Assembly (NCBI RefSeq): GCF_004115745.1
Contig: NZ_QXIL01000007.1
Coordinates: forward strand, 1 to 64,000
Length of the DNA: 64,000 nt
DNA from: Levilactobacillus suantsaii
GTDB lineage: Bacteria; Bacillota; Bacilli; Lactobacillales; Lactobacillaceae
Direction: 5' to 3'
Each line of letters opens with the position of its first letter. Position 1 is the first letter of the stretch. A program made the translations under genes and the position numbers. This document shows, piece by piece, positions 18,390-57,407 of this stretch. The notes under the pieces are model-generated. The model was given only the letters and a program-made list of their open reading frames with translations, did no database searches and was not told the DNA's origin.

Positions 18390-19739
18390 TTGAAAACTCG
18401 TCTCACCTGGCGGGAAACTGGGTTCATCGGCACCATGCTCTTTGGCTTGTTCTTCGGTGCCGGCAACCTGATTTTCCCCATTTACCTGGGGCAACAAGCT
18501 GGGAGTCACATTTGGGCGGCTATCCTGGGCTTGTTGCTGACCGGGATTGGGCTCCCACTGTTGGGGGTCACCGGGATGGGGTTGTCACGAAGCGAAGGCG
18601 TCTTTGCCTTGGCCAGCAAGGTCAACCGGCCGTTCGCCTATGGCTTCACCATCGTGTTGTACCTCACGTTGGGTCCCTTCTTCGCCATCCCCCGGTTAGC
18701 CACCACCTCGTTTCAAATCGGGGCCGTCCCCTTCCTCAACTCTGGCAGTCAGACCTGGGGCTTGGCCCTTTTCTCGGTGGCCTTCTTCTTGGTCGCCTGG
18801 TTGCTGGCCCGGCATCCCGGGAAACTGATGACTTACATCGGCAAATGGCTGACTCCCCTCTTTTTAATTTTACTTGCCATCATCATCGGCGCGGCGTTGC
18901 TGCACCCCATGGGGCCGTTAAGCGGCCCCACGCGAGGGGCTTACGCCACTAGTCCGGTGCTCAGCGGTTTCACCGAAGGTTACAACACCATGGATGCCTT
19001 AGCGGCGTTAGCCTTTGGCATCGTGGTCATCGACACCATTCGCTCGCTAGGGGTCACCGACCCGCGGCAAATCGCCCAAGACACCATCAAGGCGGGGACC
19101 ATCAGCATGCTTTTGATGGGCGTCATCTACACTTTGCTGGCATTGATGGGGACCATGAGTCTGGGACATTTCGCCGCCGCGGCCAACGGCGGCGTGACGC
19201 TCGCTCAGATTGCCCACTACTACTTTGGATCGTGGGGAAACGGCTTATTGGCCTTACTGGTCATCATCGCTTGCCTCAAAACGGCGATCGGTTTGATTTC
19301 GGCGTTTGGGGATACCATGCACGACCTGTTCCCCAAGCTTCCCTATAACGCGGTGACCGCCTTTGCGGCTATCCTGCCCTGCCTGTTCGCTAACGTCGGC
19401 TTGACCCGCTTGATTGCCTATTCGACACCGGTCTTGATGTTCTTGTATCCATTGGCGATCGCGTTGATCATCTTAGCGGTCCTCACGCCACTATTCGGGA
19501 GTTCCCGGATTCTTTATAACGTGACGATCCTATTCACACTGCTCCCCGCGATTGGGTCTGCCGCCGGTTCCTTACCCGCCAGTTGGCAAGCAACTGGGTG
19601 GTGCCAAGCCATCCTCACGGCCAACGACTACCTGCCCTTAGCTGCCAATGGTTTTGGCTGGGTGGTCCCGGCTATCTTAGGCCTCATTATCGGTCAAGTA
19701 GCCAGTCACTTGTATCGGGCCAAAACGTCCACCGACTAA
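18390..19739 (+). CDS. brnQ: Branched-chain amino acid transport system II carrier protein
   Basis: A 449-residue LIVCS-family symporter that imports Leu, Ile and Val with Na+ or H+. The N-terminal GFIGTMLFGLFFGAGNLIFP segment is the family signature, followed by helix breaks GPFFAIPR and the FTEGYNTMDALAALAFGIVV motif. About 12 membrane helices are evident. The start is TTG at 18390; the ribosome site (GAAAG) is weak, but the alignment of the first helix with the family supports it. It may connect to the T-box-led peptide operons at 38-45 kb, one of which reads an Ile codon. No T-box precedes brnQ itself. Confidence 0.93.
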   Translation: MKTRLTWRETGFIGTMLFGLFFGAGNLIFPIYLGQQAGSHIWAAILGLLLTGIGLPLLGVTGMGLSRSEGVFALASKVNRPFAYGFTIVLYLTLGPFFAIPRLATTSFQIGAVPFLNSGSQTWGLALFSVAFFLVAWLLARHPGKLMTYIGKWLTPLFLILLAIIIGAALLHPMGPLSGPTRGAYATSPVLSGFTEGYNTMDALAALAFGIVVIDTIRSLGVTDPRQIAQDTIKAGTISMLLMGVIYTLLALMGTMSLGHFAAAANGGVTLAQIAHYYFGSWGNGLLALLVIIACLKTAIGLISAFGDTMHDLFPKLPYNAVTAFAAILPCLFANVGLTRLIAYSTPVLMFLYPLAIALIILAVLTPLFGSSRILYNVTILFTLLPAIGSAAGSLPASWQATGWCQAILTANDYLPLAANGFGWVVPAILGLIIGQVASHLYRAKTSTD

Positions 19740-19749
19740 ACACTACACA

Positions 19750-19785
19750 AAAAGCGACACCCCCTCACCGGGTGCCGCTTTTCTT
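19750..19785. terminator. Bidirectional terminator after brnQ
   Basis: AAAAAGCGACACCC against GGGTGCCGCTTTT, with T-runs on both strands. On the minus strand the one mismatch becomes a G-U pair, so it also fits as the 3' end of the minus-strand RNA proposed here. Confidence 0.85.
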
Positions 19786-20198
19786 TTGGGATGACCTGAC
19801 ACCCTGCTCACAGCGGGGTGTCAGTAACGGTGGGCTGACCGTGGCTGAGGGGACGCTCACGGTCCACCACAACTCATCAGCCCACCTAGAGCATCTACCA
19901 AAGATTATCCGTCACACTTAACCGAATAAGCCTGAACCTAACGTTGTTCAAATCAGATTAGGTCCATCTTTAGTGCTACTCCTCCTCATTTATGACTACC
20001 TACAGTGAACGGGTCACCAGCGACCAATCAAGCCCCGTGGCTTCGCTGGCCTGCCTAACGTTTTAAATGACCATCAACTGTCACGCCGCGAGCGGGAGGT
20101 TATCCCCGTTAACCGTCACCGCCTGAGCTATGTAACGTTAGGCCACACACCAGCGTAATCGGGTGTCCTCAACGTTCACTGTACGGCTTAGTTTAGCA
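19750..20198 (-). ncRNA. Candidate structured non-coding RNA of unknown class
   Basis: This gene-free interval contains many perfect complementary pairs: 20001-20011 with 20173-20183 (11 bp), 20053-20062 with 20134-20143 (10 bp), 19829-19838 with 19877-19886 (10 bp), 19796-19804 with 19816-19824 (9 bp), plus hairpins at 20017-20049, 20047-20066 region (ACACC/GGTGT at 20147-20166) and 19936-19963. A minus-strand promoter, TTTACA (20227-20232), 16 bp, CATAAT (20205-20210), would start an RNA near 20198 that ends at the terminator at 19750, about 450 nt. I do not recognise tmRNA, RNase P RNA, 6S, SRP RNA or a known riboswitch in it. No convincing ORF is present. Confidence 0.55.
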
Positions 20199-20374
20199 GG
20201 CTAAATTATGATTTCGGTCTCTTTATTGTAAAGTTTTTGTATATCTGTCACTCTGCTATCATAATTTTGTTATTAATAATAAGATTCAAGCAGGCACCAC
20301 CCTTTTTTGGCGCCCCACATAACGTTGGTTGTCGTTTTTCGCTCCCCACCCCTTATCCAGACTAAACCAACCAA

Positions 20375-20426: not shown

Positions 20427-22337
20427 TTAGTTGACCTTAGCGATTTTCCCCTGTTCGATATAAACGCTCAAGATAGCGATGTCGGCGGGGTTGACCCCAC
20501 TGATTCGACTGGCCTGGGCCAGCGTCTCCGGTTGAATCTTCTTCAACTTCTGGTGCGCTTCGGTCGCCAGACCGTCGATAGCGTCGTAGTCAATCTTATC
20601 TGGGATTGTCTTGGCTTCCATCCGCTTCAACTTAGCCACGTTGGCTTCGGCCTTCTTGATGTAGCCAGCGTACTTCAAGGAAATCTCGATTTCTTCAACG
20701 ATGTGTCGGTCCAACGGGTGTTCTGGTGCCGGAATGAACTGCGATAAGGCTTCATAGTCCACGTATGGGCGCCGTAAGAAGACCGCTGCCGTCACACCGT
20801 CTTGCAACGGCTTATCCCCATGGCTGGTGATAAAGGCGTTGACCGCGTCGTTAGGCTTGATGCGAATCTTATTCAAGCGGTCAATTTCGGCCTGAATCGC
20901 GGCCTTCTTGTCGAGGAAGGCTTGGTACCGGTCGTCACTGATCAACCCCAGCTCATGGCCCTTTGCCGTCAACCGCAAGTCAGCGTTGTCGTGCCGCAAA
21001 ATCAAGCGGTACTCAGCCCGGCTGGTCAACAGCCGGTAAGGTTCGTTGGTGCCCTTGGTCACCAAGTCGTCGACCATCACACCGATGTAAGCGTCCGACC
21101 GCTTCAAGGTGAAGCCTGGCTTGCCTTGTGCCCGTAAACCGGCATTGATACCGGCTAACAAGCCTTGGCCCGCCGCTTCCTCGTAACCGGACGTCCCGTT
21201 GGTCTGACCGGCCGTAAACAGGTTCTTTAAGACCTTAGTCTCCAACGTTGGTCGCAACTGGTATGGCGACACGACATCATATTCGATGGCGTAACCCGGG
21301 CGCATCATTTGGGCGTCCTCGAGCCCCTGAATAGAGTGCAAGATCTTCTGTTGCACTTCTTCGGGCATCGAGGTCGATAACCCCTGAACGTACCATTCAT
21401 CGGTGTGCCGGCCTTCTGGCTCCAAGAAAAGCTGGTGGCGCGGCTTGTCGGCAAACCGGACGATCTTATCCTCGATTGATGGGCAGTACCGGGGGCCGAC
21501 CCCTTCAATCACACCGGTAAACATCGGCGCGCGATTGAGGTTTTCGCGGATGATTTCGTGAGTCTTGGTGTTGGTGTAAGTCAACCAGCAAGACAGTTGG
21601 TTCTTCAGTTTTAAGTAAGCACTGTCTGGCGTGGTGAAACTGAAGTGGTTCGGCTGTTCGTCGCCGGGTTGCTCCTCGGTCTCATCGTAGTGGATGGTGT
21701 TGCCATCCACCCGCGGCGGGGTCCCGGTCTTGAAGCGTTCCAAATCAAAACCGTACTTCGGCAGGTTGGCCGTTAGCTTAGTCGCTGGTTGCGAGTTGTT
21801 CGGGCCCGACGAGTACATCAGTTCACCGATAATAATCTTCCCCCGCGCCGCGGTCCCGGCTGCGATAACCACGGCCTTGGCCCGATAGCTCGCGCCGGTG
21901 TTGGTGATGACCCCTTTACACTCGTCGTCTTCCACGATCAGATCATCGACGATACCCTGACGTAAGGTCAAGTTAGGTTCTCTTTCCAAGGTATGCTTCA
22001 TTTCCGCGTGGTAGGCATGCTTATCGGCCTGCGCCCGTAAAGCGCGGACGGCCGGGCCCTTACCAGTGTTCAACATCCGCATCTGCACATAGGTCTTGTC
22101 GATGTTTTTCCCCATCTCGCCACCTAACGCGTCGATTTCCCGGACCACGATTCCCTTGGCCGGGCCCCCGACCGAGGGGTTACATGGCATAAAGGCGACC
22201 ATATCCAGGTTGATCGTCATTAACAACGTCTTGTTGCCCATCCGGGCGGCCGCTAGTGCGGCTTCACTGCCGGCATGGCCAGCACCCACGATGATGACAT
22301 CGTAGTCCTCACCGGGGTATTGTTTTACTTCCGTCAT
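20427..22337 (-). CDS. mnmG: tRNA uridine-5-carboxymethylaminomethyl modification enzyme MnmG (GidA)
   Basis: A 636-residue FAD enzyme that, with MnmE, installs the carboxymethylaminomethyl group on U34 of certain tRNAs using methylene-tetrahydrofolate and NADH. The FAD motif [18 protein letters not shown] is at residues 16-33. The family signature segments GPKY-like [13 protein letters not shown] and the two cysteines of the catalytic loops (CNPS near residue 52 and the later [10 protein letters not shown]) are present, as is the insert [16 protein letters not shown]. The C-terminal helical MnmE-binding domain is complete. It follows mnmE on the same strand after 137 bp and ends at a strong terminator. 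Confidence 0.97.
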
Positions 22338-55894: not shown

Positions 55895-55967
55895 TGGGCA
55901 GTCAGGGGCTCGAACCCTGGACCCACGGATTAAGAGTCCGTTGCTCTACCAACTGAGCTAACTGCCC
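55895..55967 (-). tRNA. tRNA-Lys(CUU), copy 1
   Basis: A 73-base tRNA: acceptor stem GGGCAGT/ACTGCCC, D-arm GCTCAGTTGGTAGAGC, anticodon loop CTCTTAA (anticodon CTT), T-loop TTCGAGC and discriminator A. No CCA is encoded. The promoter on the minus strand is TTGCAT (56012-56017), 18 bp, TATGAT (55988-55993). It is identical to the copy at 57335. Confidence 0.96.
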
Positions 55968-57334: not shown

Positions 57335-57407
57335 TGGGCAGTCAGGGGCTCGAACCCTGGACCCACGGATTAAGAGTCCGTTGCTCTACCAACTGAGCTA
57401 ACTGCCC
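57335..57407 (-). tRNA. tRNA-Lys(CUU), copy 2
   Basis: The sequence is identical to copy 1 over all 73 bases: anticodon CTT in the loop CTCTTAA, stem GGGCAGT/ACTGCCC. The promoter on the minus strand is TTGCGT (57450-57455), 17 bp, TATGAT (57427-57432). Similarity to copy 1 continues about 60 bases upstream with divergence, so the unit of duplication included promoter and tRNA. Confidence 0.96.

Follow-up and report, generated by a model that had tools for sequence, protein, structure and literature searches.

Long structured RNAs are a known kind of bacterial transcript. The RNAIII-type RNAs of Staphylococcus aureus are ~500 nt in length, possess many hairpins, and are triggered by a two-component system. 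OLE, GOLLD and ROOL are also long, multi-domain bacterial RNAs with conserved hairpins, as described in PMC12286853. Among the lactobacilli, L. salivarius possesses a 520-nt ncRNA, encoded on a megaplasmid, more abundant than the 16S rRNA and confined to one lineage, whose function was not identified (Cousin et al. 2017, PMC5643018). In the Gram-positive Pho regulon, as illustrated by the pst operon, TTTACA-type repeats follow an 11-bp period, and TTTACACAATCTTTACA is given as a putative Pho box of S. pneumoniae pst1 (PMC4913102). In S. meliloti, sRNA candidates with a putative PhoB site have been predicted, and some sRNAs rise on phosphate starvation, these being the ones that lack an evident PhoB site (PMC2573895). 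Phosphate-linked sRNAs as such therefore have precedent.

The locus described here is found in a stretch of 64,000 nucleotides from Levilactobacillus suantsaii (hereafter referred to as the window). The RNA that it is predicted to encode resembles that of L. salivarius in being long, found in a lactobacillus and restricted to one lineage, and is set apart from it, by description, by its chromosomal location between mnmG and brnQ and by its Pho-type promoter. It shares a multi-domain architecture and conserved hairpins with OLE, GOLLD and ROOL, but has no Rfam match at gathering score, belongs to a single clade, and is not found in the phage and plasmid collections searched. It shares TTTACA-type repeats of 11-bp period with the pst operon, the unit driven here being a noncoding RNA and not a transporter gene. 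The S. meliloti sRNAs, compared by description, differ in their Gram-negative host and in the box that precedes them. As for the RNAIII-type RNAs, also compared by description, the conserved loops of the window RNA are purine-rich and not C-rich.

Organization of the mnmG-brnQ interval

The stop codons of mnmG and brnQ are separated by 687 bases in the window. The initial annotation, made from the sequence alone, had described about 450 gene-free bases here, and an ORF scan of the window indeed finds that the gap contains no complete ORF of at least 70 aa; a mechanical 112-aa frame in the ORF list starts within brnQ and extends into the gap. The names given to the flanking genes also hold, with Pfam matches to GIDA and Branch_AA_trans respectively. 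Following the direction of mnmG, the order is the mnmG terminator, a TTATTAATAA palindrome, TTTACA-type boxes, ~438 structured bases, and a terminator. The features are as follows:

20427-22337, minus strand: mnmG
20410-20374, minus strand: mnmG terminator
20270-20279, no strand assigned: TTATTAATAA palindrome
20227-20243, minus strand: two Pho-type boxes, TATACA-N5-TTTACA
20221-20216 and 20210-20205, minus strand: degenerate third and fourth box positions
20210-20205, minus strand: alternative -10 element, CATAAT
20190-20195, minus strand: probable -10 element, TAAACT, 9 bases past the fourth box position
19746-20183, minus strand: structured noncoding RNA, ~438 nt, its 5' end estimated from the -10 element
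20002-20181, minus strand: 5' domain (D1), with a closing stem, a junction and hairpins H1-H3, matched by covariance model R2
20098-20114, minus strand: hairpin H1, loop ACGGGGA
20067-20084, minus strand: hairpin H2, loop AGUUGAUG
19979-19987, minus strand: GAGGAGGAG, Shine-Dalgarno-like, without a conserved ORF behind it
19829-19886, minus strand: third domain, a 10-bp stem closing the hairpin GGAC-CGUGAGC-GUCC
19796-19824, minus strand: fourth domain, a hairpin with a UGAG-containing loop
19778-19794, minus strand: UCAUCCCAAAAGAAAAG tail
19746-19782, minus strand: intrinsic terminator, stem 19782-19750 of 13 pairs
18390-19739, plus strand: brnQ

The TTATTAATAA palindrome is found in 25 of the 34 genus intervals, and is possibly a regulator site or an UP-like element. 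The long perfect stems noticed in the initial annotation are present, at 9 bp (20181-20173 with 20011-20003), 10 bp (20143-20134 with 20062-20053), 10 bp (19886-19877 with 19838-19829) and 9 bp (19824-19816 with 19804-19796), and the 13-pair terminator stem lies where it had been placed. The terminator has T-runs on both strands, which suggests that brnQ ends there too.

The minus strand folds to a predicted -193.1 kcal/mol (z -6.29), with none of 100 shuffles as good, and its z is still -5.00 when the terminator is left out. With a z of -4.82 the plus strand is well folded too, and the strand assignment therefore rests on the promoter, the terminator and the conserved loops, and not on the folding energy. 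CCTAACGTT / AACGTTAGG is found three times in the window RNA (20143-20134, 20062-20053 and 19945-19937), which leaves the 5' copy with two possible pairing partners. In whole single-sequence folding, GAGGAGGAG and the UCCC of the tail are predicted to be partly paired, and a long-range contact between the two is possible.

Homologous RNAs and conserved structure

A DNA search of 58 genomes returned, besides the window, only matches to the terminator and one weak internal match in genome G013. The mnmG-brnQ intervals of the relatives were therefore compared instead. The genus sample consisted of 34 other genomes, 33 of which have a mnmG match and contributed their interval, one of these (L066) being cut by a contig end; the genome without a mnmG match is 72% complete. 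Homologous RNAs, spanning 439-443 nt, were identified at the same locus in L. acidifarinae DSM 19394 (G014), L. zymae DSM 19395 (G005) and G013, with folding z-scores of -3.64, -3.18 and -4.39 among the three.

I then used these three sequences alone to derive a consensus structure with RNAalifold, yielding 64 pairs in domain 1 and 66 pairs in domains 2-4. The initial annotation had named covariation in related mnmG-brnQ intervals as one of the means to judge this RNA, and such covariation is found: 9 of the 64 pairs and 16 of the 66, or 25 of 130, have changed on both sides and still pair in at least one sequence, some of them being broken in another. None of 500 shuffles reaches these counts, and slid controls give 0-2 and 1-5. 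Since the three sequences in which changes were counted had also served to predict the structure, these shuffle and slid controls are favorable to it, and the window provides the independent test.

For this purpose, two covariance models (R1 and R2) were built without the window. Both match it, R2 with an E-value of 3.4e-9 in 64 kb (1.3e-7 genome-wide), and R1 with 3.7e-7 (1.4e-5 genome-wide). The R2 alignment takes in the whole of D1, some of its pairs being non-standard, and that of R1 encompasses domains 3-4 and the tail; no homology to the relatives was found for domain 2 of the window, which the R1 alignment skips. ACGGGGA, AGUUGAUG, GAGGAGGAG and UCAUCCCAAAAGAAAAG are identical in all four RNAs, of which three are close to one another, and the surrounding stems differ in sequence and still pair. 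In the H2 stem, a G-C pair of the relatives is A-U in the window, and the fourth-domain stem has been replaced in the window, its letters being unlike those of the other species, with pairing retained.

No ORF is common to all four RNAs in the ORF lists (12 codons or more), and the indels that separate them are of 1-2 bases, two observations that argue against coding. The undescribed multi-helix RNA proposed in the initial annotation is thus supported, by covariation in three homologues and by the absence of an Rfam match at gathering score.

The terminator differs by a single letter across the four species. Together with the upstream tail (19746-19794), it is nearly invariant while the other stems drift, which is unusual for a terminator, and a similar terminator-plus-tail copy is found elsewhere in another genome of the collection (G033, L005). 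UGAG was also considered as a repeated, multi-site binding motif; with 5-6 occurrences per RNA against 2.3-2.5 in mononucleotide shuffles, a count reached by 9 to 41 of 500, this is too weak, and the idea was dropped.

Distribution and database searches

R1 and R2 each match 4 of 35 genus genomes, and two further weak matches in the genus (E-values of 0.175 and 0.032), at other places, are unconvincing. In the wider family, 2 of 301 genomes match, both of them Levilactobacillus (G000, that of the window, and G005); these 301 came from a larger pool, the filters here were stricter, and G013 and G014, absent from the matches, were evidently not drawn. In a mnmG tree of 29 genus genomes, the four RNA carriers form one side of a branch, with a support of 92/86.

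The initial annotation recognized no signature of tmRNA, RNase P, SRP, 6S, T-box or common riboswitches, in agreement with a search of all 4227 families of Rfam 15, in which neither the window locus nor the loci of seven relatives gave a match at gathering score. OLE, GOLLD and ROOL are presumably among these families. Permissive scans of the window and of two relatives' loci (L038 and L040) returned sub-threshold matches only, of which many fall on the terminator. Xoo2, the best of them (E-value 0.0076 in L038, 0.035 in L040), is on the opposite strand at the terminator, and was rejected. The same search of the window lists two tRNA genes of equal score on the minus strand, at 55895-55967 and 57335-57407.

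A T-box or riboswitch leader was also discarded, as no ORF follows on the same strand and the RNA ends at a terminator facing the convergent brnQ. A blastn search of plasmid and phage collections with the window sequence gave no match, nor did a scan of viral contigs with a single exact, degenerate pattern that covers part of H1-H2. I found no published account of such an RNA in the literature covered in part, including that on Levilactobacillus sRNAs and on PhoP and phosphate starvation. The RNA family appears to be new, as does the arrangement whereby an RNA gene now follows a Pho-type promoter that precedes a protein operon in other species.

A Pho-type promoter

A minus-strand promoter had been called in the initial annotation and is present, with a correction to its -10 element, which is probably TAAACT (20195-20190) and not CATAAT (20210-20205). 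The TAAACT of the window aligns with TATGCT in the relatives. The Pho character of this promoter, its presence across the genus and the missing protein genes described below are additions to the initial annotation. The TTTACA-type boxes resemble the putative Pho box reported for S. pneumoniae pst1, TTTACACAATCTTTACA (PMC4913102). The pstS promoters of five genomes possess four boxes with an 11-bp period and 9 bases to TATACT, an arrangement that recurs in the RNA promoter, with the 11-bp box period and 9 bases from the fourth box position to the -10 element. In all five, the ORF behind the pstS boxes meets the NCBIfam PstS cut-off, and the kinase that precedes the boxes, analyzed in two of the genomes, has PnpS and PhoR as its nearest families, below their cut-offs. 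Good boxes number two in the window and three in each RNA-bearing relative.

I scored the intervals for four box positions and a -10 element at fixed 11-bp/9-bp spacing. The score, which is fitted to these promoters, is 21-26 in 30 of the 33 relatives' intervals, 18 in the window, and 14 in the remaining three (L048, L052 and the contig-end-cut L066). Among 680 mononucleotide-shuffled controls the top score is 19, and the window's 18 is equaled or exceeded by two. In G005, G013 and G014, the exact pattern TWTACA-N5-TTTACA occurs at pstS and the RNA promoter only, and in G000 at these two and one further site; as a control, the backward pattern gives 0, 1, 1 and 2 matches in G000, G013, G014 and G005 respectively. 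The third G000 site (L109:1501-1517; G000:C70:58026-58042) is located before an ORF of 221 aa encoding a CAAX-protease-like membrane protein (Pfam Rce1-like).

From these promoter features, I infer that PhoP may control the RNA promoter; other OmpR-type regulators could use similar repeats. Two of the four boxes are degenerate in the window, which makes Pho control less certain in this species, and judging from these boxes it may have drifted there. In addition, the window contains TTTACA-N16-CATAAT, which would also serve as an ordinary promoter.

At the level of comparative sequence analysis, the results above show a conserved structured noncoding RNA locus, present in one clade, behind a Pho-type promoter that is found across the genus.

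The same promoter elsewhere in the genus

In the mnmG-brnQ intervals of the genus, a ~128-aa membrane-type ORF is found in 23 of 34, an 87-aa Phd/YefM-like ORF in 25, a convergent HAD hydrolase in 24 and a 91-aa ORF in 26. Only the HAD hydrolase has a firm Pfam match, those of the others being below cut-off. In most of the genus, the membrane-type and Phd/YefM-like ORFs follow the Pho-type promoter; in L057, the block of four ORFs lies ~390 to 2300 bases past the mnmG stop. All four are absent from the window, L037, L038, L040, L039, L048, L052 and the contig-end-cut L066, and in L043, L046 and L065, which lie outside the clade, the membrane ORF is missing and others of the four are kept. A search for the membrane ORF in the genomes of the four RNA carriers found none at an E-value of 0.05 or below, the best match (0.062) encompassing 35 residues in a 259-aa frame.

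The seven operon-less genomes form one group in the mnmG tree, with a support of 100/98. In this midpoint-rooted tree, I infer a loss of the operon in the sub-group, and not a late gain elsewhere. Within the sub-group, four genomes possess the RNA, two have no promoter, and the last (G004, locus L039), a sister species, has the promoter followed by a different stretch. The latter is gene-free, ~185 nt in length, folds with a z of -4.43 and has its own terminator; it is possibly a second RNA, or a remnant.

Proposed role and alternative explanations

On balance, I lean towards a stand-alone noncoding RNA gene, activated by PhoP and acting in trans as a regulator under low phosphate, that arose in the operon-less clade. 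The gene, multi-domain and ~440 nt long, would start downstream of mnmG and end at the terminator, back-to-back with the end of brnQ. PhoP, the phosphate-starvation response regulator, would bind the TTTACA-type boxes spaced by 11 bp and activate transcription, as it would at pstS in the same genomes. In a further step, less supported than that of PhoP, the RNA might accumulate under low phosphate and act in trans as a regulatory RNA, with the invariant motifs ACGGGGA, AGUUGAUG, GAGGAGGAG and UCAUCCC binding mRNAs or a protein. The clade in which the RNA would have arisen is devoid of the small-protein operon preceded by the same promoter elsewhere in the genus.

A bolder proposal, which I hold tentatively, is that in one lineage the Pho promoter, which precedes the small-protein operon in most of the genus, was left without it and came to drive a ~440-nt structured regulatory RNA, which would be a young gene born by promoter capture and a main output of the phosphate response. 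Alongside the phosphate transporter, the RNA would count among only two or three transcription units with strict Pho boxes per genome.

Complements of the invariant tail, with one mismatch at most, were identified at 54 places in the four genomes, against 18 for a backward control; this control differs in composition, and the excess is therefore not evidence. Among the 30 of 54 places that were compared, no target other than the locus itself is common to all four genomes. Two pairs look orthologous, in two genomes each (L112 with L125, and L119 with L128). G005 and G013 are also connected by a repeat-like set.

Instead, it could be an RNA of the OLE, GOLLD and ROOL sort, structural or ribonucleoprotein in nature and made constitutively, independent of phosphate in the window species and not acting by base-pairing. 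I consider this rather unlikely, although the ornate fold and the invariant loops are in its favor, and the degenerate third and fourth boxes of the window, next to the alternative TTTACA-N16-CATAAT promoter, fit it as well, as does the lack of a base-pairing target common to the four species in the partial tail-complement search. However, the three relatives retain three good boxes in the pstS geometry, and in the four genomes the exact two-box pattern is hardly found outside pstS and the RNA locus.

The other explanations that I considered sit badly with the covariation or with the anatomy of the locus. That the RNA is a functionless leftover, namely the leader of the lost small-protein operon transcribed from a still active promoter, is improbable: the promoter is indeed genus-wide with the operon absent here, and 5 of 20 leaders between a Pho-type promoter and an ORF in other species fold at z of -2 or below (-2.15 to -4.23, in L050, L051, L055, L063 and L065), but the other 15 have ordinary folding energies, none of 28 other mnmG-brnQ loci is matched convincingly by the models (best E-values 2 for R2 and 0.48 for R1), and the compensatory changes and invariant loops point to selection. 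An antisense partner overlapping the 3' end of brnQ and controlling its mRNA ends is favored by the near-invariant terminator-plus-tail block and by the one back-to-back terminator on which both transcripts would converge. Yet the overlap would concern only about the last 40 of 440 nt, leaving the conserved upstream domains unexplained, and I regard this role as very improbable. Least likely of all is the mRNA of a small protein, which the presence of GAGGAGGAG in all four RNAs and a 20-codon GTG frame, alike in three species, might suggest: this frame lacks a clear ribosome site close to its start and is truncated in the window, the RNAs have no frame in common behind GAGGAGGAG, and the indels are of 1-2 bases.

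Few of the long, ornate bacterial RNAs have both a known trigger and a known function. The preferred reading, that of a PhoP-activated regulatory RNA, offers a testable trigger, as phosphate limitation is predicted to act on the RNA through PhoP. Its origin is also placed on the tree, in a clade of four sampled species. In its outgroups this promoter is still followed by a protein operon, and in a sister species (G004) by a different, shorter candidate RNA. If Pho control is true, the locus would represent a compact case for the birth of a structured-RNA gene, and for its addition to a two-component response.
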